Positions 3,499 through 33,753 of a stretch of DNA of 64,000 nucleotides are shown here, one piece after another. The DNA is taken from contig JAQYLT010000033.1 of NCBI GenBank assembly GCA_028719885.1, positions 1 to 64,000 of the forward strand. The letters run 5' to 3'. Positions within the stretch are counted from its first letter, which is position 1; each line of letters begins with the position of its first letter. The DNA is from Bacillota bacterium. GTDB taxonomy: Bacteria; Bacillota; Clostridia; Oscillospirales; Oscillospiraceae. The position numbers and the translations under genes are program-made. The notes beneath the pieces were generated by a model, which did not search any database, was not told where the DNA came from, and saw only the letters and a program-made list of their open reading frames with translations.

Positions 3499-4782
3499 AT
3501 GTACATTCGAAAAAAGGATATGAAACCCTTTCAGAATAAAATCTGGCTTGCAAGCCCCACCATGCATGGTGAAGAGCTGAAATACATGACAGAGGCCTAT
3601 GAGACGAACTGGATGTCGACAGTGGGCGTGAATATTAATGAGGTGGAGCGAATCTCAGCAGAAAAGATGGGGGTCAAGTACGCTGTTGCATTGTCTAGTT
3701 GTACCGCTGCTCTCCACCTGTGCGTAAAGTATGCTGGTGAGCAGCTTTATGGCAAGCCTGCTATTGGTCACGGTGCGGTGGAGGGCAAGCGTGTATTCTG
3801 CTCCGACATGACATTTAGCGCAACTGTGAACCCTGTGGTCTATGAGGGGGGTATCCCCGTGCTCATCGATACGGAACGAGACACATGGAACATGGACCCG
3901 GTCGCTCTTGAGAAAGCCTTTGAAATTTACCCTGAGGTCAAGCTGGTAGTTGTAGCGCACTTATATGGTTTCCCAGGCAAGATTGATGAGATAAAAGCCA
4001 TTTGCAGCAAGCATGGTGCACTGCTCATTGAGGATGCTGCCGAGTCTATGGGAGCAACCTACAAAGGAAAGATGACCGGAAGCTTTGGCGACTTCGCTGC
4101 TATCAGTTTCAATGGAAACAAGATTATCACTGGTTCCAGCGGTGGCTGCCTGCTGACCAATGATCTGGAAGTGGCGAACAAATCGAGAAAATGGTCCACT
4201 CAAGCCAGAGAAAACGCTCAGTGGTATCAACACGAAGAAGTAGGCTACAACTACCGGATGTCTAATATTGTTGCCGGCGTTGTTCGCGGACAGTATCCCT
4301 ATCTGGAACAGCATATTGCCCAAAAGAAAGCTATTTGGGAACGATATAAAGACGGACTAAAAGACCTGCCTGTTTCCATGAACCCCTTTGAGGAGGATAA
4401 AGCAGTCCCAAACTACTGGCTGTCCGCAATGATTATCGATAGGGATGCAATGTGCAGACAGGTGCGTGATGATACCCAGGCGCAATACTTCCCAGAACAC
4501 GGCAAGTCCTGCCCCACGGAAATCCTGGAAGCAATCTCCTCCTTAATGGCAGAAGGTCGCCCTATTTGGAAACCGATGCACATGCAGCCTATCTATAGGA
4601 TGAATAGCTTTATTACGGCAGCCGGAGAGGGCAGAGCCAGGACCAACGCCTATATTGCAGGTGGCGTTGAGGATGTGGGCACAGATATCTTCGCAAGGAG
4701 TCTATGTTTGCCCAGTGATAATAAAATGACAGAAGAGCAGCAGAATGTCATTATCGAAGTGATTAAACGATGCTTTGAGTGA
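3499..4782 (+). CDS. DegT/DnrJ/EryC1/StrS-family PLP-dependent sugar aminotransferase
   Basis: Probably aminates the 4-keto sugar made by the dehydratase at 175-2130, as PglE does in bacillosamine synthesis. The opening (KIWLASPTMHGEELKYM-EAYETNWMSTVG) is characteristic of PglE-like aminotransferases. The predicted PLP-binding lysine is K208 in ISFNGNKIITGSSGG, and the phosphate-binding segment is SSCTAALHL. It is 427 aa from ATG 3499, a normal family length. A longer reading frame back to 3391 is open, but its added 36 residues do not look like the family, so I chose 3499. The gene overlaps the start region of the next one, suggesting co-transcription. Confidence 0.85.
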   Translation: MYIRKKDMKPFQNKIWLASPTMHGEELKYMTEAYETNWMSTVGVNINEVERISAEKMGVKYAVALSSCTAALHLCVKYAGEQLYGKPAIGHGAVEGKRVFCSDMTFSATVNPVVYEGGIPVLIDTERDTWNMDPVALEKAFEIYPEVKLVVVAHLYGFPGKIDEIKAICSKHGALLIEDAAESMGATYKGKMTGSFGDFAAISFNGNKIITGSSGGCLLTNDLEVANKSRKWSTQARENAQWYQHEEVGYNYRMSNIVAGVVRGQYPYLEQHIAQKKAIWERYKDGLKDLPVSMNPFEEDKAVPNYWLSAMIIDRDAMCRQVRDDTQAQYFPEHGKSCPTEILEAISSLMAEGRPIWKPMHMQPIYRMNSFITAAGEGRARTNAYIAGGVEDVGTDIFARSLCLPSDNKMTEEQQNVIIEVIKRCFE

Positions 4783-4807: not shown

Positions 4808-6841
4808 ATGAAAAAAACAAGAAATTTGTTTTTCAGACGCAACGCTGTGAAAGCGCTGATGATGATTTACGACGCACTGGCAGTTAACATTGCCTATTTT
4901 TCAGCTCTTGTCCTGCGCTACTACGTGACCTTTGAATTTAATCCGGACGCAGTGGTATTCCTCAACACATTCCGCAAATTTGCCCCGTATTACGGCGTGA
5001 TTTGCGTTGCTGTGTTCTACGTCTTCCGGCTGTACAATACCATGTGGAAGTTTGGCGGTTTGCGGGACTTAAACCGAATTATTTTGGCCTGTGTTGTTAC
5101 CGCCCTGATACAGATATTGGGCACAAGAATCTTCTTGATCCAGATGCCCGAGACCTACTATGTGCTCGGTTTTGTGATCCAGGTGGCATTGATTGTTCTT
5201 GTGCGTTTTGCATATCGGCTCTATCTTCTCGAGCGTAACACCGCTGAAGCAAAACGGAAAGCGTCTACCAATGTAATGGTGATCGGCATTGGCGGCGTCG
5301 GACAGTTCGCCTGGAATCAGATAGAGCAGGATGGTTCCATGAAGGTGGCCTGCGTGGTCAGCAGCAATGAAGAGTGGCCAAATCAGTACCTGAACGGCGT
5401 GCCTGTTATCAGCGGTCTTAACAATCTGGAGCAGGTTGTTGAGAAGAAGAAAATCAGATATGTGATTATTGCGGATGAAACGCTGACCGAAGAGGATAAC
5501 AAGAAGATTCGTTCCATCTGTGACAATAAGAATATTGAGGTTCAGGATTTTATCGAGTTTTTGCAGAGCAGCAATGATGCAGAAGCCCCGATTGCTGTAG
5601 TCGATAATACGGATGGACATCGGGTCATTCCTTTCAGCCCCCCTGACATTACTGACGCAGAAATTGATGAAGTCAAGCGGGCGCTGAAGTCTGGCTGGAT
5701 TACCACCGGCCCGAGAACAAAGGAGTTGGAGCGGAAGCTGGCGGCATATTGCCACACCTCCAAGGTCGTCTGCCTAAACTCCGCCACAGCCGCAGAAGAA
5801 CTGAATTTTCGGATTTGCGGCATCGGCGAGGGTGACGAAGTGATTGTCCCTGCCTATACATATACGGCTTCCGCTTCTGCTGCCATCCACTGCGGCGCAA
5901 AAGTGGTCTTTGTGGACAGCCAGAAAGATAACTGCGAAATGGACTATGACAAGGTCGCCGCTGCCATTACCGAGCGCACCAAAGCTGTCGTGGCTGTTGA
6001 CTTAGGCGGTATCGTTGCTGATTACGACAAGCTGTTCGCTGCCGTAGAAAGCAAGCGCAACCTGTTCCAGCCCAAGCAAGGCAATGATTTGGGTGCACGT
6101 ATCCAGCAAGCAGTTGGAAGAGTACTGGTGTTCGCCGACTGCGCTCATGCGCTGGGTGCTAGATGGCATGGAAAAATGGCTGGTGAAATCGCAGATTTTA
6201 CAGATTTCTCTTTCCACGCAGTGAAAAACTTCACCACTGCCGAGGGCGGCGCTTCCACCTGGCGGGATATCCCCGGCATCGACAACGAAGAGATGTACCA
6301 CCAGTACCAGCTCTACAGCCTCCACGGCCAGAGCAAGGACGCCCTGGCAAAGACCAAGGTGGGCGCCTGGGAGTACGACATCATCGGCCCCTGGTACAAG
6401 TGCAATATGACCGACATCATGGCCGCGATTGGCCTGAAGCAGTTCGATCGCTACGAGGGCCTGATGCAGCGCCGCCATGACATCATCAAGAAGTACGATG
6501 CAGTATGCGACGAGCTGGGTGTCATGCACCTGACCCACGAGGGCGAAGACTTCCGCAGCTCCGGCCACCTGTACATCACCCGGATCCCCGGCATCGACGA
6601 AGCCAAGCGCCAGGAAATCATCGTAAAAATGGCAGAAATGGGCGTCGCTACCAATGTGCACTATAAACCCCTGCCCATGATGACCGCCTATAAAGAACTC
6701 GGCTGGGATATTAAGGATTTCCCCAATGCCTATGACTATTATCACAACCTGATTACACTGCCTCTGCATACCTGCCTGACGGATGCGGATGTGGACTATG
6801 TCTGTGAGAGCTTTAAGAAGGCTGTTAAGGAAACGGTGTAA
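4808..6841 (+). CDS. Fusion: CapD-type membrane/NAD-binding module plus DegT aminotransferase
   Basis: A 677-residue two-part protein. Residues 1-~265 are a four-helix membrane domain plus Rossmann-like fold (VMVIGIGGVGQFAWNQI), normally followed by a dehydratase. Here a complete DegT/DnrJ/EryC1 aminotransferase (about 270-677) takes its place, with predicted PLP lysine K473 in SFHAVKNFTTAEGG and substrate loop NSATAAEE. It thus looks like a membrane-anchored sugar aminotransferase. ATG 4808 has AAGGGGG upstream; the frame is also open back to 4775 but without a better site. Base use changes inside the gene: about 6240-6640 is distinctly GC-rich compared with both flanks, as if patched by recombination. 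The function of the membrane half is inferred. Confidence 0.85.
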   Translation: MKKTRNLFFRRNAVKALMMIYDALAVNIAYFSALVLRYYVTFEFNPDAVVFLNTFRKFAPYYGVICVAVFYVFRLYNTMWKFGGLRDLNRIILACVVTALIQILGTRIFLIQMPETYYVLGFVIQVALIVLVRFAYRLYLLERNTAEAKRKASTNVMVIGIGGVGQFAWNQIEQDGSMKVACVVSSNEEWPNQYLNGVPVISGLNNLEQVVEKKKIRYVIIADETLTEEDNKKIRSICDNKNIEVQDFIEFLQSSNDAEAPIAVVDNTDGHRVIPFSPPDITDAEIDEVKRALKSGWITTGPRTKELERKLAAYCHTSKVVCLNSATAAEELNFRICGIGEGDEVIVPAYTYTASASAAIHCGAKVVFVDSQKDNCEMDYDKVAAAITERTKAVVAVDLGGIVADYDKLFAAVESKRNLFQPKQGNDLGARIQQAVGRVLVFADCAHALGARWHGKMAGEIADFTDFSFHAVKNFTTAEGGASTWRDIPGIDNEEMYHQYQLYSLHGQSKDALAKTKVGAWEYDIIGPWYKCNMTDIMAAIGLKQFDRYEGLMQRRHDIIKKYDAVCDELGVMHLTHEGEDFRSSGHLYITRIPGIDEAKRQEIIVKMAEMGVATNVHYKPLPMMTAYKELGWDIKDFPNAYDYYHNLITLPLHTCLTDADVDYVCESFKKAVKETV

Positions 6842-25252: not shown

Positions 25253-26386
25253 ATGAAAGAAATCATTTGTAAAGACTGTGGCAAAAGCTTCTCCATTTCA
25301 CCTGACGAGGAAAAGTTCTATATCTCAAAAGGACTGCAGATTCCAAAGAGATGCAAAGAATGCCGCAAAAATAGGAATGAAGAAGAAAAAAGAATAAAAA
25401 CAGAACGGGATGAAAAGGAGCTTCAAGGACTTGTAGCACAATTCACTCAAAAGCCCATCGAGTTTACAAACCCCGATAAGTCGCTTGTGATTATCGGCAA
25501 TGGCTTCGACATTATGCATGGTGTAAAATCTTCATATTGGGAATTCCAAAAGACGATAGGGAAGAATAACACGTTGCGATGGGAAATTGAAACATACCTC
25601 GATACTGGTGATTTGTGGTCAAACCTTGAAGATTCGCTCGGCAGACTGAATTACAGTATGTTCCTTAATCCCCATGTGATCGATATGTGGCTTGATAATT
25701 TTGGAGCATACGATCCTGATTGCCAGGCAGCAGATTTTTTTGCCGCTGTGGAGACTGCCATTGGGCCCACATTCAACATTCCAAGAGAACTGAATTCCAG
25801 ATTTAAGAAATGGCTAAAGACTTTAAAAGTCGAGAGCGATGACAGACCATTCTCAATGCTCCATGGTGAATATAAAGTACTGAGTTTCAACTATACGGAG
25901 TTCATCGAAACATTATATGGAGCAAAGAGAGAGAATATCTGTTATATCCATGGTTGCAGGAGGACAGAAAAAGGAAAGAGACCCGATGAAATAATTCTTG
26001 GTCACAAGCCTGGTATGGAAGAAGAACAGTGGGATAAGGTAGAACTGAAACCATTCAAGTTCAAGAATCCATATAAAAGATACATTATGGAAGCGGCTAT
26101 GGAAACGGCGGCGAGAGAAGCAGCATGGTATGATGAATCTACAACCAAGAAGTGTGGGGATATCATTAAGAACCACAAGGACTTCTTTGATGGGTTGAGT
26201 AGCATTGAAGAAGTATTCGTCATCGGTCATTCCTTGTCAGAAGTTGACTATCCTTATTTTGAGGAAGTGAGGAGTAGATGCGATGCGAAGTGGCATATCG
26301 GCTATCATTCACTGGATGATATGAAGAGACTGATTGCTCTTGTAGGATATTTGGGTTTGAAGGATGTAACTGTATTTAGGACGTGA
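25253..26386 (+). CDS. AbiH-like putative phage-defence protein with N-terminal zinc ribbon
   Basis: The core LVIIGNGFDIMHGVKSSYWEF near residues 79-99 matches the start of AbiH-family abortive-infection proteins (NGFD-AHG--TSY). Later landmarks are VLSFNYTEFIETLYG, ICYIHGCR, IILGHKPG and VFVIGHSLSEVDYPYF, the last two resembling the SIR2-like/AbiH nucleotide-binding layout. It is 377 aa. The first 45 residues add a zinc-ribbon-like module (CKDCGKSFSIS...RCKECRK, two CxxC knuckles), then a charged helix. AbiH members act against phage by an unclear route. It sits alone inside the glycan locus, between two pieces resembling a split FrhB gene, and has no visible partner gene. Identification rests on motif memory, not a search. 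Confidence 0.7.
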   Translation: MKEIICKDCGKSFSISPDEEKFYISKGLQIPKRCKECRKNRNEEEKRIKTERDEKELQGLVAQFTQKPIEFTNPDKSLVIIGNGFDIMHGVKSSYWEFQKTIGKNNTLRWEIETYLDTGDLWSNLEDSLGRLNYSMFLNPHVIDMWLDNFGAYDPDCQAADFFAAVETAIGPTFNIPRELNSRFKKWLKTLKVESDDRPFSMLHGEYKVLSFNYTEFIETLYGAKRENICYIHGCRRTEKGKRPDEIILGHKPGMEEEQWDKVELKPFKFKNPYKRYIMEAAMETAAREAAWYDESTTKKCGDIIKNHKDFFDGLSSIEEVFVIGHSLSEVDYPYFEEVRSRCDAKWHIGYHSLDDMKRLIALVGYLGLKDVTVFRT

Positions 26387-27517: not shown

Positions 27518-27778
27518 GTACATTTAATACAGAAAATCAATGTTGCGCGGGAATCTTACTATACTACTGCCTGAGACTGTAGCCATCCGTTCTTGCTTTT
27601 ATCGGCATGATTTGCTATATTTATATTGAAGAATCTGGTATATTATGACGGCTTGTTTCCAACTTTCTCCATCAGATGATACTTATGTACCACCCCGCTA
27701 CGTGGTGCTAAATTGTAAGCGTAAAATCTCCCCGCGACTTGTGTAGCAGAGCAGCAGTATGAGATAATACCCCAAACT

Positions 27779-27815
27779 CTAAATCTCTCCCTTAAACTGC
27801 AATGGAGAGATTTAG
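27779..27815. repeat. Perfect 12-bp inverted repeat just upstream of IS66 tnpA
   Basis: CTAAATCTCTCC (27779-27790) and GGAGAGATTTAG (27804-27815) are exact inverted copies around a 13-base loop. The right arm ends 11 bases before the tnpA start. It could fold in mRNA and influence tnpA translation, or guard against read-through transcription. Function is inferred. Confidence 0.7.
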
Positions 27816-27826
27816 CACAATGGGAG

Positions 27827-28177
27827 ATGGTCTATGTGGAACAGAGTCTGCAAGTAATGTCTAAGCAGGAGCGTTTGGAGAATTGGACAGCCAGGATTAT
27901 GGCCTGCCGGAGCAGTGGCATGACCGTCCGGGCTTGGTGCCGGGAAAACGGACTGTCTGAGAAAACCTATTACTATTGGCAGCGGAGGTTGTTTCAGGCA
28001 CTGTCGGAACAGCAGGCAGCACACGAAACAGCCTTTGCCGAGGTCACGCTGCCGCAGTCGGTCTGTTCTGAAAATGTGGCTGTGACTGTACGTATTGCCG
28101 GAGCTGAGGCGGATATTCATTCCGGCGCAGATGCGGCCACCGTGGAAACTGTGCTGCGGATTCTGAAATCATGCTGA
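27827..28177 (+). CDS. tnpA: IS66 accessory protein TnpA
   Basis: Small helix-turn-helix protein of IS66 elements. CRSSGMTVRAWCRENGLSEKTYYYWQRRL is the family motif region (quoted in part as VRAWCRENGLSEKTYYYWQ). Up to 116 aa from ATG 27827; GTG 27836 and ATG 27857 are possible alternative starts, since GGGAG at 27822 touches the first ATG. Its end overlaps tnpB by seven bases. Required for transposition in known IS66 members, but here the transposase is missing. Confidence 0.8.
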   Translation: MVYVEQSLQVMSKQERLENWTARIMACRSSGMTVRAWCRENGLSEKTYYYWQRRLFQALSEQQAAHETAFAEVTLPQSVCSENVAVTVRIAGAEADIHSGADAATVETVLRILKSC

Positions 28178-28527
28178 GCGATTTCACAGGAGCGGACAAG
28201 GTCTACATTGCCTGCGGCTACACCGACCTGCGGCGGGGCATTGACGGGCTGGCTACCATGGTTCAGCAGCAGTTCAATCTGGATCCTTTCACCAACACCC
28301 TGTTTCTGTTCTGCGGTCGACGCCGGGATAGAATCAAGGCACTGTACTGGGAAGGCAACGGATTTGTTCTGCTGTACAAGCGGTTGGAATCCGGCAGCTT
28401 CCAATGGCCCCGGTCGGAAAGGGAAGCCAGAGCGCTGACCATGCAGCAGTACCGCTGGCTCATGGAAGGGCTAAGTGTGGATCAGCCAAAGGCGCACAGG
28501 CCGGTAAAGGGTCTGGAAATAGTATAA
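28171..28527 (+). CDS. tnpB: IS66 accessory protein TnpB
   Basis: 118-residue IS66 Orf2 protein, apparently full length. Diagnostic segments are VYIACGYTDLRRGIDGLA, LFLFCGRRRDRIKALYWEG and the C-terminal RWLMEGLSVDQPK. Its role in transposition is unclear even in complete elements. The stop lies at the junction with the Mu-like transposon, so the natural downstream tnpC has been lost. Confidence 0.85.
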   Translation: MLSDFTGADKVYIACGYTDLRRGIDGLATMVQQQFNLDPFTNTLFLFCGRRRDRIKALYWEGNGFVLLYKRLESGSFQWPRSEREARALTMQQYRWLMEGLSVDQPKAHRPVKGLEIV

Positions 28528-28528
28528 G

Positions 28529-28555
28529 TGATCTGCCGGACTCAGAATGAGAATA
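28529..28555 (+). repeat. Left terminal inverted repeat of Mu-like transposon
   Basis: Begins TGATCTGCCGGAC and ends TGAGAATA. Aligned without gaps to the reverse complement of 32512-32538, 21 of 27 bases agree. The terminal TG is the usual end of Mu-, Tn7- and retroviral-type DDE elements. It starts one base after the tnpB stop codon. Confidence 0.85.
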
Positions 28556-28643
28556 ATCCCTTATCTTAATTCGGTAAAAAGCTCCACCTGAATATTGATT
28601 ATCTTTACAGCTTCAAAATATGTGGTGGAAATAAAGCCTTATT

Positions 28644-28699
28644 CGGCATATTGGGCAGTACAAACTGAAATGAAATTGAGAAAAATGCACGGCATATTG
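28644..28699 (+). repeat. Two subterminal CGGCATATTG repeats, likely transposase sites
   Basis: CGGCATATTG occurs at 28644-28653 and 28690-28699, 46 bases apart and in the same orientation. A near copy, CGGCATTTTG, lies in mirror orientation at 32497-32506 by the right end. Multiple asymmetric subterminal binding sites are a feature of Mu-like transposons. The 233 bases from 28528 to 28760 contain no gene. Confidence 0.6.
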
Positions 28700-28760
28700 C
28701 GGTAAAAAAGATAAATCCAAGACAGGTGAGATATCCTGTCTTGGATTTCATACGGGAAAA

Positions 28761-29723
28761 TCACATGGTCATTTTGTGATGCAAACAATCATGCAGTAAT
28801 GCGCTATCGATTTGAGATATGGTAAGTGAAGAAGCATCGATCTCAATTCCGACTGGTGAAGGGATTTCTGCTTCAGGGTTGTTGGATTTTTCGATATTTT
28901 CGGTGTTTTCGGGGTCTTCTTTACTATGTTTAATTGCCTTGAATGATTGAGACTTTTCTTTGTGGGTGTGCAGGATGCGCCCGGATTCGTTAATGAGTTG
29001 ATAGCTGATATTTTTCCATTCTGGACGGACTTGGTCGAAGAGAAGTTCAATGATTTCTATGAAGTTTCCAAGGCCACCGCTTTGGCGGTCGCGGCAGATG
29101 GAAACCAGTTCAGATTTTACTTTGGAGCTAAAGGATACGGCATACTGCTGCTCCAGTTGGCGTAAATAGTCGAGTATTTCCCGCTCGTCGATGCGGTCGA
29201 ACTCTTCTTTTCGAAGACGGCGGAATATCTGCGGGCGATTGTGGGTGATGTTATGATCCTTTTTCCGTTCTCCCGAAATCAGATCTTTCAGAACATAAGT
29301 ACCACAGATGATGATGGGGACATCCGTTTCGTCAAATATCTGTCGAAGCACATCAATCTTTGAACCGTTTCCGTTGGCAAGATATTCCGCTTCATCGAAT
29401 ACAAAACAATAGTTGGGATCATCTTGAAGCTTTCTTTGAATACGATCCTGAACTGTGCCATTATCACCTACAACCCGAACGCCGATTGCGTTAGCGATAA
29501 AAACGAGAAGGCTGTTCATTGTTGTGTTTGGAGAACAGCGGTAATAGTAAGCAGGATGCGGATATTGTGTGCAGAAATCCAGCATGGTAACGGTTTTTCC
29601 CTCGCCGGGTTCCCCTAAAACAATGACCATTTTCTTGCTGTTCACATGTTGAATAACGCCTCCGAGAACAGTATCCTGTGTAGCGGTGTACATTCTTGGC
29701 AATATGGATTCTCTCACGATCAA
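28761..29723 (-). CDS. MuB/TniB-like AAA+ transposition ATPase
   Basis: ATP-dependent target-selection partner of the transposase. Walker A is GEPGEGKTVT (residues ~37-46) and Walker B FVFDEAEYL; a conserved arginine-rich RPQIFRRLRKEEFDRI stretch lies near residues 165-180. The last ~70 residues are polar and probably disordered. 320 aa. The start overlaps the transposase stop: TTG 29723 lies four bases after GAGGAGG, while a GTG at 29717 is also possible. Similar ATPases serve Mu, Tn7-, Tn552- and Tn5053-type elements; I call it MuB/TniB-like without choosing a subfamily. Confidence 0.85.
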   Translation of the reverse strand: MIVRESILPRMYTATQDTVLGGVIQHVNSKKMVIVLGEPGEGKTVTMLDFCTQYPHPAYYYRCSPNTTMNSLLVFIANAIGVRVVGDNGTVQDRIQRKLQDDPNYCFVFDEAEYLANGNGSKIDVLRQIFDETDVPIIICGTYVLKDLISGERKKDHNITHNRPQIFRRLRKEEFDRIDEREILDYLRQLEQQYAVSFSSKVKSELVSICRDRQSGGLGNFIEIIELLFDQVRPEWKNISYQLINESGRILHTHKEKSQSFKAIKHSKEDPENTENIEKSNNPEAEIPSPVGIEIDASSLTISQIDSALLHDCLHHKMTM

Positions 29724-31804
29724 TCGCCTCCTCTTCTCTGATTTTTGGATTCCCGGAGTTTTCTGCCGAGTTCCCGATAGGATTGCGTAATTTTTCCTTG
29801 CTTTTCGAGAGAAGGCTCCAAGTTCATCAGATTCTTGGAATATTCTGCTGCTTTTTCTTTTAACTCCTCTGGGATAGACGTGTCATCAATTGCGTCTAGT
29901 GAATCCTTTTCTGTATCGATTGCCTGTCCATAGCGAATGTTGTCCACGGGTGGAATATGACAGACCTGGTCGGCAATATCCGTTTGGAGGACGATGGAAT
30001 GCAGCTGTTCCAGCTTTCCGGAGTAAAAACGGTGCTGCGCTTGCTGCTGCCGAATATGGTTGATGATCTTATATCGGTTTTGCTCCACCACATTCAGTTT
30101 CTCCACCAAATGAGCCTCGCCAATGTACTTGTGGTCATAAACCACAGAGATGTTCCGGTTAAATGGTGTGTCAAAAGCAAAGATACGATATTTGGTACGC
30201 TTCTTTCGCTCAATGAGCGGCGCCAATTCGGAACACCAGTAGAAACGGTTGTTACCGTATTGGATTCCTTTGGTGCGAATGACCCGCTCAGCAGATACAC
30301 TTTTCAGGACGCTGAGTGTCCGCCAGGTTGGCACATAGGAACTGGCTTTTGGAAGCCTCTGATAAAGTGAATTCGGAGATTCCTTTGTGACAGCAAAATC
30401 ATTGTACTTCGGATAAATCACATCGGCAAAATAGTCGGCGAATTGTTCAAAAGTATAGAGCTCATTGGACTTGATTTGCTGTTCCAGTATAAAAGGGCGT
30501 TCATTCGGACTGCAACCGCAGTAACCAGGGAGCGGGCGAATCCATTCTCTGTCAATCGTGTTCCAGATTGACTCAATCGTTTTGCTTCGGCCTCGATAAG
30601 GCAGGGCGTGAATGACTTTGATTCCAAACCATTCCAGGATTCCAGATTCACCGAACTCTTTGTTCAGATAGAGCGGCTCGGGTTCGGAGTTAGGCAGCCC
30701 CTTCATCTTGTTGGAACGATAATCGCGGCCATTATCAATATAGAAGTAATCGCAGATGCCTGAATAGGGTGTGTCAACGGTGAAAGCACAGGCTCTGGCA
30801 AAGCACTCGGCGATGCAGTCTGAGTTTGGTTTCAGGCTGAGGACATAGGATACCATGACATCGCTTGCGTCATCAATGATCGCGGTAATCCAAGGGCGCT
30901 GTACTTCCCAAGAACCGTCGGGGCGTTGCCTGGTACGGACTTCCAAGTCTAGAATTTTGTGGTCGGAGAACCACACGCGGTTCACAATGTTAGACTTTTC
31001 TCTGGCAGGAGCGTAATGGTAGAGCGCTGCCCAAGCTCTTACGCCTGCCCAAGCAAGGACATCCTGCTGTTCCGGTATTCTTCGGATGACGGAGCATACG
31101 GTATCATCGCAGTTTGGCTTTACCATAAATTCAGAATTGCGTGAGCAGGTTGCGGTTGGGATAAAGTCACCTTTTTTGTGAGGCCCATTTTTCACATCAG
31201 GGTGATAAGGGCAGGTTTTGCATGGAAATGGTTTAGAATCACGAATGTCTCTGAAGATTTTAGCCGCAGAGATTTTCCCGGGTTTTTCATGGAGAAAGAT
31301 GATCAGATCGCGGCAGTATAGACAGCAGGTTCGATAGCGGTCTTTGGTATCTTCAGCAGAAGCAGAATGAGACAAAGCCCTATAAAGCGGTGTACTATTC
31401 ATGTAAAGAAATCTCCTTCTGGCTAAGGTGCTATAGGAAATATGGTATTCAGATGCAAGTTCACGCAGATGTGCGGTGAGTGTGCCGGATGAGGCGAATG
31501 CCTGAGAGATTTTGTATGCCCTGCGCATCATCTCCATTTCACGAAACAGTGATTGAACATCGGAGGAGCGTAGCGGCTTTGTAGAATAATCTCTTATCGC
31601 ATCAAGAAATGAGAAATCGATCACTCGATCCCGGAGCAGATACTCCGATACATAGATATCTTGTATGTTCTTCGGAATGTCATTCAGCGGAACACAATCA
31701 TCCTGAATAATCTCACGGTAAAGCTTTTGTAGTTTTCCAGGAGATTGTTTTGTGATTTCAGCCAGAACGGAAATAGAAATCCAGTGGTAGATTGTGTTTT
31801 GCAT
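29720..31804 (-). CDS. MuA-like DDE transposase
   Basis: 694-residue transposase, the size of MuA. After an N-terminal DNA-binding part of ~270 residues with HTH-like segments (SEYHISYSTLARRRFLYM), an RNase H-like integrase core follows. Candidate catalytic residues are D in FSDHKILDLEV, D in FYIDNGRDYRS and E in RSKTIESIWNTI. A Mu-type C-terminal beta-barrel domain follows (GIQYGNNRFYWCSEL). A cysteine-rich patch (CCLYCRDL, CKTCPYHPD, residues ~165-210) may bind zinc, which is not typical of MuA. ATG 31804 is preceded by GAGG at good spacing. A strong promoter lies upstream (31844-31872). Confidence 0.88.
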   Translation of the reverse strand: MQNTIYHWISISVLAEITKQSPGKLQKLYREIIQDDCVPLNDIPKNIQDIYVSEYLLRDRVIDFSFLDAIRDYSTKPLRSSDVQSLFREMEMMRRAYKISQAFASSGTLTAHLRELASEYHISYSTLARRRFLYMNSTPLYRALSHSASAEDTKDRYRTCCLYCRDLIIFLHEKPGKISAAKIFRDIRDSKPFPCKTCPYHPDVKNGPHKKGDFIPTATCSRNSEFMVKPNCDDTVCSVIRRIPEQQDVLAWAGVRAWAALYHYAPAREKSNIVNRVWFSDHKILDLEVRTRQRPDGSWEVQRPWITAIIDDASDVMVSYVLSLKPNSDCIAECFARACAFTVDTPYSGICDYFYIDNGRDYRSNKMKGLPNSEPEPLYLNKEFGESGILEWFGIKVIHALPYRGRSKTIESIWNTIDREWIRPLPGYCGCSPNERPFILEQQIKSNELYTFEQFADYFADVIYPKYNDFAVTKESPNSLYQRLPKASSYVPTWRTLSVLKSVSAERVIRTKGIQYGNNRFYWCSELAPLIERKKRTKYRIFAFDTPFNRNISVVYDHKYIGEAHLVEKLNVVEQNRYKIINHIRQQQAQHRFYSGKLEQLHSIVLQTDIADQVCHIPPVDNIRYGQAIDTEKDSLDAIDDTSIPEELKEKAAEYSKNLMNLEPSLEKQGKITQSYRELGRKLRESKNQRRGGD

Positions 31805-31827
31805 TTTTATGGCCTCTAATAATAAGT

Positions 31828-31853
31828 AAGTTACATTAAACAGATAATAACTT
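31828..31853. promoter_or_regulatory. Candidate operator: AAGTTA/TAACTT inverted repeat over the transposase promoter
   Basis: Half-sites AAGTTA (31828-31833) and TAACTT (31848-31853) face each other across 14 bases, and the second overlaps the -10 box of the transposase promoter. It sits between the divergent transposase and repressor genes, where a cI-like repressor would bind. Six-base arms are short, so this is a suggestion. Confidence 0.4.
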
Positions 31854-31872
31854 GGAATTCTAAAAATGTCAA
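31844..31872 (-). promoter_or_regulatory. Near-consensus sigma-A promoter for the transposase operon
   Basis: On the minus strand: TTGACA (31872-31867), 17-base spacer, TATTAT (31849-31844). The -35 is perfect and the -10 differs at one base. It would fire the transposase and ATPase strongly unless repressed, fitting the divergent HTH gene. Confidence 0.75.
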
Positions 31873-31888
31873 TAGGGTGAAATAGAAA

Positions 31889-32422
31889 ATGAACAAAAAA
31901 ATGCACGAGTTAAGGATATATCTGGGCCTGTCGCTCAGAGCCTTTGGTGAGCCGATTGGTTACACGGGGATGCACATCAGCCGATTTGAGAAAAACGTTT
32001 TGATACCGGATGAACGTGTGATTCAGAAAATCTGCGAGGTGTTTCATGTTGAGCCGTCCTATTTCACAGGTGAACTGAGCGTGGAGCAGGCAGTCCATAA
32101 GGATGCTGAAGACGAAGTAAAAAGCGCAGCCGCACAACGGCTGACAAGCGCAAGACTGGAAAAGGGACTGAGTATGTGGGAACTGTCCAGAAGGGCAGGT
32201 ATCTCACAGCCGCAGATTAGTATGCTGGAGAGCGGAAAATACCAGTTGAAAAGAAAAGCAGGAGCAAAACTTGCAGGGGCTCTGGATGTGGGAGTGGACT
32301 GGCTGCTTACCGGTGATGAAGGAAAGAAGCAGTATCCAGCAGACAGGAAGCTGATTGATTGGCTATGGGAGCACCCAGAAGTAAGAGAAGAATTGTGGAA
32401 GAGAATGGACGATGGAGAGTAG
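31889..32422 (+). CDS. Double-HTH XRE-family repressor of the Mu-like transposon
   Basis: 177 residues with two XRE/cro-type helix-turn-helix domains. The first spans ~5-60 (LRIYLGLSLRAFGEPIGYTGMHISRFEK region) and the second ~80-135 (GLSMWELSRRAGISQPQISML). The tail (LIDWLWEHPEVREELWKRM) is acidic/aromatic and not assigned. Divergent from the transposase, in the position of Mu c repressor. Two HTH domains in one short chain would let one molecule contact two half-sites. A candidate operator overlaps the transposase promoter. Function is inferred from position and fold. Confidence 0.8.
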   Translation: MNKKMHELRIYLGLSLRAFGEPIGYTGMHISRFEKNVLIPDERVIQKICEVFHVEPSYFTGELSVEQAVHKDAEDEVKSAAAQRLTSARLEKGLSMWELSRRAGISQPQISMLESGKYQLKRKAGAKLAGALDVGVDWLLTGDEGKKQYPADRKLIDWLWEHPEVREELWKRMDDGE

Positions 32423-32496
32423 AACGCAGTCGAAAACTGAGAAAGAGCTGATGGAAGTATTCTAAAATACGACTAAAAGTATGGAAGTGGATGAAA

Positions 32497-32538
32497 CAAA
32501 ATGCCGTGTGATATTCTCAGGTTGCGTGCGGTAGATCA
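32497..32538 (-). repeat. Right end of Mu-like transposon: subterminal repeat plus terminal inverted repeat
   Basis: The terminal repeat occupies 32512-32538. Read inward on the minus strand it begins TGATCTACCGCAC and contains CTGAGAATA, matching the left end at 21 of 27 positions. Just inside, CGGCATTTTG (32506-32497) matches the left-end CGGCATATTG sites at nine of ten bases. Immediately outside begins the truncated cyclase pseudogene. Confidence 0.82.
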
Positions 32539-33753
32539 TACGGCGGGAAGCCGGTGAACAGTGAGGATATGACCTGCTGGATACCCTTGCACTTGTGCGC
32601 GATTATGTGACAGATAATCTTTCTGCCGGAATCATTGCGTTGGATGAGGATGATCGGATAATTTATTCCAATCAGCCAGCCATGGACTTTTTCCCGAGTC
32701 TGAAAACCGACGGAAAATCCATCACTTCCAGCCTGATTGAAGCGTACCGAAAAAAAGAGATGGTATTTCTCGACAAACGAGTTTATCGACCCGAGTACCG
32801 GGAGCTTACCAAGGATGGCAGGCGGCGCGGACATATCATCGTTCTCAGCGACATTACGGATAATTATCAATATACAATGCTGATGAAAAAATGACCGAGA
32901 CGGATGTTCTGACGGGACTTCATAACCGGCTAACATACGAATATGCCATTTCGGAATTGAGGAAACAGGCTGTCCTTCCACAGAGCCTGGTATTGTTTTC
33001 CATGGATGTAAATGGGTTGAAAAACGTAAACGATACCTATGGCCATAGTGCTGGAGATGAAATGATTCGTGATGCTGCTGACTGTATTGTTCAGGCGGTA
33101 AAAGACCTGGGAACCTGTTATCGAACAGGCGGTGATGAATTTGCTGTGATTCTAACTTCCCTGGAGGCGGATCCTGAAATCATTTGCCGGCAAATAGACC
33201 AGCGTGCTGCTGCGGTGGCCCAAATACGGTCGCACCCTTTCAGCATCTCAATTGGCTACTGTGCGGCGGAGGGTTGCAGGGGTGACGGGATTGAAGATAT
33301 AAAGGAACAGGCGGACAAAATGATGTACCGCAACAAAGAACACTTTTACCTTTCAAACGGAATCGACCGGCGTACGCAGAGTGAAGCCTTTTTGGCGCTG
33401 TGTGAAAATTACATTAAGGTTATACAGGCAGATCTTGTTACAGAACAGTACAAGATTATCAAAATGGATGCTGAAGAGCAAACGGACATATGGTTTTTTT
33501 CAGACAGTCTTGGTTTATGGCTGCGTCATTTTGCAGAGAGGGGTATGATTGCAGAAAAGGATCGAGATGTTTTTACAGAGTCTACCAAACCCTCACATCT
33601 GGGCCAATTCTTCAAAAAGGAGAAAAGCGTTTTTGCCTCAACTATTCCCGTAGAGTCGGATCGGAGTACCGTAGTGTGATGCTAGAGGTTATTCCGGCCA
33701 GAAATTTTACCTCTGCCTACCAGAGTGTTTATCTGTATGTAAAAGAGGGTTGA
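32539..33753 (+). pseudogene. PAS-GGDEF diguanylate cyclase, 5'-truncated and frameshifted
   Basis: Remnant of a c-di-GMP-forming enzyme. The coding signal starts near 32565 (GYDLLDTLALVRDYVTDNLS), after a stop and without the expected N-terminal membrane part. A PAS domain (AGIIALDEDDRIIYSNQP) runs to a stop at 32892. One missing A in the A-run 32885-32890 explains this; the GGDEF domain continues in the next frame from 32891 (TETDVLTGLHNR, FSMDVNGLKNVNDTYGHSAG, RTGGDEFAVI). A second one-base shift near 33650 moves the C-terminus (EYRSVMLEVIPARNFTSAYQ) to another frame ending at 33753. The lost 5' end coincides with the transposon boundary. Confidence 0.82.

Follow-up and report, generated by a model that had tools for sequence, protein, structure and literature searches.

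Does a transposase gene of the MuA type, found next to an ATPase gene and a divergent regulator gene, belong to a complete transposon, to the early region left by a Mu-like phage, or to one of the known transposase-plus-ATPase families? This question is raised by a 64,000-nucleotide stretch of contig JAQYLT010000033.1 (hereafter the window), from a Bacillota bacterium of the Oscillospiraceae. We found that the three genes form a discrete element of 4010 bp, from position 28529 to position 32538, between 27-bp imperfect terminal repeats. We consider it very probable that this element is a real, autonomous-looking transposon of the Mu (MuA/MuB) kind that carries neither cargo nor virus genes. 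The interpretation given in the first-pass annotation of this DNA, a stripped-down and self-regulated relative of Mu, is thereby supported; both transposition by the element and its repression are predicted from the sequence.

Genes and ends of the element

The transposase and ATPase genes lie on the minus strand and the regulator gene diverges from them (Table 1), leaving 232 bp, 84 bp (the divergent intergenic region) and 116 bp of non-coding DNA. As first noticed, these are the only genes recognised between the ends: the list of open reading frames (ORFs) and the Pfam and PHROG scans gave no cargo, virion or any fourth gene. None of the genes that mark a transposable phage (late activator, Gam, terminase, virion genes) was recognised there, nor was a resolvase, a TnsA-like nuclease, a target selector or a CRISPR-Cas gene recognised inside the element, and the IstA/IstB profiles of Pfam and NCBIfam had no match up to E 0.1 in its proteins.

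The MuA-like size and the candidate DDE residues that had been proposed for the transposase were borne out. Indeed, structure comparison revealed the MuA catalytic core fold with the DDE triad present, and the protein matches the PHROG phage transposase family phrog_310 (E 1.1e-42). Its match to Pfam Mu-transpos_C is below the cut-off (E 0.05, 14.1 bits vs 21.7). The adjoining ATPase proved to be MuB-like, as described at first reading (AAA_22, 4.8e-15; PHROG 296, phrog_296, 5.2e-21 with the longer TTG-start form); from the proposed GTG start, it begins 2 bp after the transposase stop codon. The divergent protein does hold the two helix-turn-helix (HTH) domains ascribed to it.

The ends at 28529 and 32538 are identical at 21 of 27 positions, as had been reported. 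Among 200,000 pairs of 27-mers drawn at random from 1.5-kb stretches around both ends, the best reached 18 and none (0/200,000) reached 21. A gapped local alignment of the 400-bp flanks gave a score of 15, against a mean of 11.4 for 500 shuffles (standard deviation 1.5, maximum 20), about 2.4 standard deviations above it; with so modest a score, the terminal repeat by itself would be weak evidence. We also made use of locus L007 (Lachnospiraceae), whose transposase is 61% identical to that of the window and which has three 42-bp sites, at contig base 1, 4425 and 4255, the inner one 170 bp inside its ATPase-side end. A right end of L007 at 4251 was dropped for the outer site at 4425, found further out. 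About 128,000 window positions were ranked with a matrix built from these three sites alone: the right end (minus strand) came first at 31.0 bits, the runner-up having 8.5, and the inner left site at 28658 (plus strand) came sixth at 5.5 bits. The end sequence is thus conserved with L007 at the right end and weakly at the inner left site.

Mirror-oriented copies of CGGCATWTTG had also been pointed out near the ends. Their positions stand, with exact copies at 28644 (+), 28690 (+) and 32497-32506 (-), plus one at 5742 elsewhere in the window. Their significance does not: with at most one mismatch, 14 copies occur in the window vs 11.6 expected, and we rejected the decamer as standalone evidence because this count is near chance. 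Two of the three decamers of the element sit within longer stretches that resemble transposase sites.

The adjoining DNA bears on the same limits. To the right, 30 bp starting exactly at 32539 match the final codons of a DUF6551 gene (locus L139) from a genome of the same genus (29/30); in a right-flank search of 61 genomes, this one 30-bp match was all that was found at the junction. To the left, a BLAST match to L142, a derivative of IS66 tnpA-tnpB, ends at 28528, one base past the tnpB stop codon. This left boundary is weakened by the other seven of the eight IS66 relatives compared, whose matches end earlier (28351 to 28511), and by a looser L142 alignment that continues about 20 bases beyond 28528 with mismatches. 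The match could moreover end at the tnpB stop codon regardless, as coding similarity. We regard the right end as firm and the left end as likely, on weaker grounds than the right.

Table 1. Predicted features of the element, in window coordinates
Feature	Position	Strand	Remarks
Left (ATPase-side) terminal repeat, outer transposase-site candidate	28529..28555	+	21/27 to right end; rank 23 on L007 matrix
Additional CGGCATATTG copy	28644..28653	+	alone not significant
Inner transposase-site candidate, ATPase side	28658..28699	+	holds CGGCATATTG at 28690-28699; rank 6 on L007-only matrix
Possible terminator of the transposase-ATPase operon	28713..28748	-	inverted repeat: perfect 14-bp hairpin, then T-rich run on minus strand; T run read from the sequence, outside terminator scan
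AAA+ ATPase, MuB/TnsC-like, without MuB N-terminal region	28761..29717	-	GTG start proposed from homology with L007 ATG
MuA-type DDE transposase	29720..31804	-	694 aa; D281/D357/E411; C161/C195/C198/C220
Candidate operator, AAGTTA-14-TAACTT dyad overlapping -10	31828..31853	.	6-bp, short, may be chance
Predicted transposase promoter, TTGACA-17-TATTAT	31844..31872	-	11/12
Divergent regulator, two Cro/C1-type HTH domains	31889..32422	+	177 aa; HTH_3 3.4e-18; PHROG 8
Right (regulator-side) terminal repeat/transposase site	32497..32538	-	rank 1 on L007-only matrix; L139 homology from 32539

Relatives and regulation

L007, L009 and L011 have the same gene order as the element, likewise between terminal repeats, and the four copies with both ends seen measure 4.0-4.4 kb. 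In L009 and L011, the same genes lie between terminal repeats of different sequence, TGTCGYGGGGCNTTNAAYYTGTCA, which in L011 agree at 23/24 positions and lie one base from both ends of the 4101-bp contig. At 0-1 mismatch this repeat occurs in four of six genomes, always on a contig carrying a complete or partial element of this kind (reversed control 0). With up to three mismatches, one extra match was found in nine genomes (control 0) and none in 24 genomes (control 3), hence no more than in the control, and the repeat is absent from the viral contigs searched. No empty site was found for L009: four of nine same-genus genomes matched, including its own, and the matches of the others reach no further than base 322 of the 379-bp left flank. 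L021 (5064-7033) holds the left part of an element of the L009/L011 type, in which the transposase frame is broken and similarity ends about 2 kb inside.

A second type of transposase-ATPase transposon with the same four cysteines in its transposase was noticed in L006 (3792-7462) and L168 (56-3542), with repeated end motifs TGTCACGGCCCGC, GTGAGAAT and TGTCCC. The repeated TGTCACGGCCCGC motifs surround the transposase and ATPase genes, and alignment gave no terminal repeat; as matching flanks were not found either, the limits of the two loci are uncertain. A divergent gene lies outside the visible ends, with a weak HTH match in L006 and none in L168.

The window element is present as one copy in its draft genome. 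When the transposase was searched against 99 kin genomes (E <=0.001), three matched, namely its own, G030 (33% identical) and G068 (24%). At E <=1e-60, we found it in one of 394 genomes of the window's order (itself) and in two of 397 genomes of the family of L007 (L007's own and G817). Thirty loci came out of one scan of genome contigs, and five of these (L007-L011) are 40-61% identical over most of the transposase. A search of a protein database turned up 69 relatives; the closest is 93% identical and represents 360 member sequences.

The regulation suggested by the gene layout is also seen in relatives. Two HTH_3 stretches were found in the regulators of all four family members tested (L007, L008, L009 and L011). 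The promoter facing the window transposase is alone no better than chance, as 0.8 sites were expected there in the scan. Promoters facing the transposase with at least 10/12 are present in five of six members (12/12 in L008 and L011, 11/12 in the window and L009, 10/12 in L021), the sixth, L007, having 8/12 only. The divergent region of L007 holds perfect dyads of 9 and 10 bp. The two-HTH domains, facing promoters and dyads fit a repressor, as in Mu, and the two-HTH protein is likely to repress the transposase promoter.

Four cysteines and kinship with Mu-like phages

The cysteine-rich patch of the transposase, singled out early as an unusual trait, turned out to be the marker of a clade that also holds Clostridial Mu-like phages. 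The four cysteines are invariant in 38 transposase rows (alignment A1 used 37 of the 69 protein relatives). In a wider set, all four are present in 45/137 rows and none in 90/137, with a single cysteine at one column in 2/137; L018, L032 and L033, counted among the 90, are fragments that do not include the cysteine region and are uninformative about it. The second set has all four in 35/82 and none in 47/82, including one uninformative fragment of the same sort (L255). The 45 rows with four cysteines (Cys4) belong to the window type, the L006/L168 type or the Clostridial Mu-like phages; Mushu, BalMu-1, RcapMu and two plasmid rows have none of them. The transposase of phage Mu was missed by the A1 profile at E 1e-4 and hence lies outside this table. 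The C...CxxC...C spacing suggests that the region may bind zinc.

The transposases of the Cys4 phages (L012-L017, L037-L045) are 26-33% identical to that of the window, and that of L041 matches Mu-transpos_C above the Pfam cut-off. Phage genes were found in four of the six Cys4 loci tested: Gam, late activator and terminase small subunit in L041, Gam in L043, terminase large subunit in L016 and terminase small subunit in L038. L012 gave a DnaC-like loader only, and the L044 protein tested had no match. The remaining Cys4 phage loci were called phage by their ORF content, and L037-L045 also by their origin in a viral collection. Among the nearest relatives without the cysteines, four of five (L194, L196, L198 and L199) have Gam or late-activator genes, and the L201 protein matches a PHROG of unknown function.

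Phages and elements differ in their ATPases. The AAA match starts at residue 27 in the window and L007 and at residue 51 in L011, against residue 92 in Mu B and residues 107-124 in phages L041, L043, L016 and L012. HTH matches in this N-terminal region are below the Pfam cut-offs in Mu B and three of the four phages and absent in the fourth; in L006, the AAA match starts at residue 90 and no HTH match was seen. Phage-MuB_C (PF09077) has no match in the window ATPase, nor in the four phage relatives. As the N-terminal region is short or missing across the element ATPases tested, this looks like a lineage trait and not a single recent deletion.

Two trees were built, the first with 55 rows and the second with 45 hand-picked rows. 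For the latter, 196 phage-type candidates were reduced to 57 at 50% identity, and most of these were left unused; thinned rows L013, L014, L039, L040 and L044 were restored, and P0062 (long branch), L020, L010, L011, L021 and near-duplicates were omitted. Similarity decided whether a protein row (P...) was labelled element or phage, its genomic context being unseen. The virus-free type, made up mostly of such rows, forms one clade in both trees (98/99 and 100/99), and the 12 outgroup rows of the first (TniA-like and other MuA) are separate (100/99). L006 and L168 join the first tree on long branches, a join that may be false. In the best trees the virus-free clade is nested among paraphyletic phages, and in the second a branch (99/97) groups nine phage rows with the outgroup. 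A single phage clade, sister to the virus-free elements, is not rejected by approximately unbiased (AU) tests (p 0.271 for the first tree, p 0.258 for the second). These trees place the window element in a virus-free Clostridial clade whose closest kin would be Mu-like phages.

With phages among the relatives, and with the left end of phage Mu showing the same layout of divergent repressor, A and B (with ner in between), the element might be a decayed Mu-like prophage that kept its early region. We find this very unlikely, as matched ends bracket the three genes in the window, L007, L009 and L011, the virus-free transposase type is a single clade, and the element ATPases tested have little or nothing of the region that stands before the AAA match in Mu B and the four phage ATPases. 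A satellite packaged by a helper Mu-like phage could be imagined too, since Mu-like phages whose transposase is of this Cys4 type occur in Clostridia; but no packaging or capsid-related gene was recognised in the element and no close transposase relative was confirmed in viral contigs (best 33% identical), which makes this extremely improbable.

How, then, did a cargo-free transposon come to share its transposase type with phages? The nearest outgroups are also phages, so that phage descent of the elements is simpler under either topology, without being proven. We give an even chance to a scenario in which a Clostridial Mu-like phage lineage shed its virion genes once and gave rise to a self-regulated transposon family resembling insertion sequences, which kept the repressor, trimmed the MuB N-terminus and inherited the Cys4, probably zinc-binding, transposase. 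If true, the family would be a traceable phage-to-transposon conversion. Whether Mu-like phages arose from transposons or the reverse is usually hard to test; with virus-free elements and phages in one transposase clade that has a clean sequence marker, the direction of descent becomes testable with more sequences.

Flanks, proposed mode of action and known systems

Several observations weigh against a real, autonomous transposon in the window. The outer left end was 23rd on the L007 matrix, at 1.3 bits, and shares in the conservation with L007 solely through its likeness to the right end. The 5-bp target duplications suggested as a check in the first-pass annotation are absent from both family copies with two flanks, both in draft assemblies: the window element lies between ATAAG and TACGG, and L009 between CAAAG and TGTCT. 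In L008 the genes are present and the contig ends show no repeat (score 10; shuffles mean 8.7, maximum 14). A single copy offers no direct sign of recent movement, and the named relatives come from metagenome assemblies, in which chimeric joins are possible.

As the window flanks derive from different genes (IS66 tnpB on the left, the end of a DUF6551 gene on the right), either the copy was rearranged during or after insertion or the assembly is chimeric. A join of unrelated contigs at a repeat would suit a draft assembly without target duplication. We nevertheless consider such an artefact unlikely, given that independent assemblies also contain elements of this type and that only the pairing of the flanks could be artefactual.

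In the surrounding DNA, window 32539-33679 opens with the roughly 30 bp that match the DUF6551 gene end, after which PAS and GGDEF ORFs overlap in two frames; gene fragments seem to have been joined here, beside the element. On the other side (27715-28528) lies an IS66-type tnpA-tnpB pair, preceded by a GTAAGCG motif and with no tnpC seen alongside; in L142 (1044-1900), such a pair stands between two GTAAGCG motifs in direct orientation, which suggests an IS66 derivative devoid of tnpC. Further away (25253-26386), we noted an abortive-infection protein of the AbiH family (PF14253, E 5e-48), whose N-terminus carries a zinc finger of the treble-clef type (zf_Tbcl, E 1e-9).

For the transposon itself, we can propose the following mode of action. 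The near-consensus promoter of the divergent intergenic region would drive the transposase-ATPase operon, and the two-HTH protein would likely repress it. The transposase probably binds one site on the regulator side and at least two on the ATPase side; it may then pair the ends and join them to a target chosen by the ATPase, by analogy with the two-component transposition of Mu, TnsBC and IstAB. Because no resolvase or TnsA-like nuclease was recognised, Mu-like replicative strand transfer is to be expected, which would give cointegrates and, when intramolecular, deletions or inversions next to the element. Mu-type replicative transposition inside one molecule yields unmatched flanks, and would account for those seen here.

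Compared with the early region of phage Mu, the element has the same divergent repressor, transposase and ATPase, the MuA core fold and more than one binding-site-like repeat at one end. It differs by the lack of ner, virion and late genes, by its two-HTH regulator and by an ATPase with neither the MuB N-terminal region nor a Phage-MuB_C match; its transposase has the four cysteines, those of Mu A being outside the comparison. With the Clostridial Cys4 phages it shares these cysteines, unlike them having no Gam, late activator or terminase gene (present in 4/6 loci) and no 106-123 residues before the AAA match (four ATPases).

A DDE transposase with an AAA+ helper is also the plan of Tn552/Tn5053 (TniA-TniB), IS21 (IstA-IstB) and Tn7 or CRISPR-associated transposons (CAST; TnsB-TnsC). 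TnsB is the best PDB match of the transposase by sequence (E 1.8e-4) and by structure, and a weak TniB match falls below the cut-off (E 0.0039). That the element belongs to one of these families is nonetheless highly improbable. It has no recognised resolvase, TnsA, IstA/IstB or target selector, its transposase is only 23-27% identical to plasmid transposases (among the matches listed, 20 of 412), the two TniA/TnsB-like plasmid rows examined have no Cys4 motif, and the outgroup rows split off in the tree. One plasmid locus has transposase, ATPase and recombinase genes in a row, and we take it to be of the Tn552 kind.

CRISPR-associated Mu transposases, CasMu-I and CasMu-V, are termed transposons and not phages in their description, where CasMu-I also has an HTH protein and MuB is named in a figure legend (PMC10910872). 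The likeness to our element lies at this level of description, and no CRISPR-Cas gene was recognised here. A literature search, partial in coverage, found no account of virus-free Mu transposons with an on-board repressor. Altogether, by the features tested, the element is neither a transposable phage nor a Tn552/Tn5053, IS21 or Tn7-like transposon. With the reservation of the Mu-transpos_C cut-off and the MuB N-terminal region, we place it in the MuA group as a virus-free variant, whose small, complete-looking units are suited to the biochemistry of regulated Mu-type transposition in Firmicutes.
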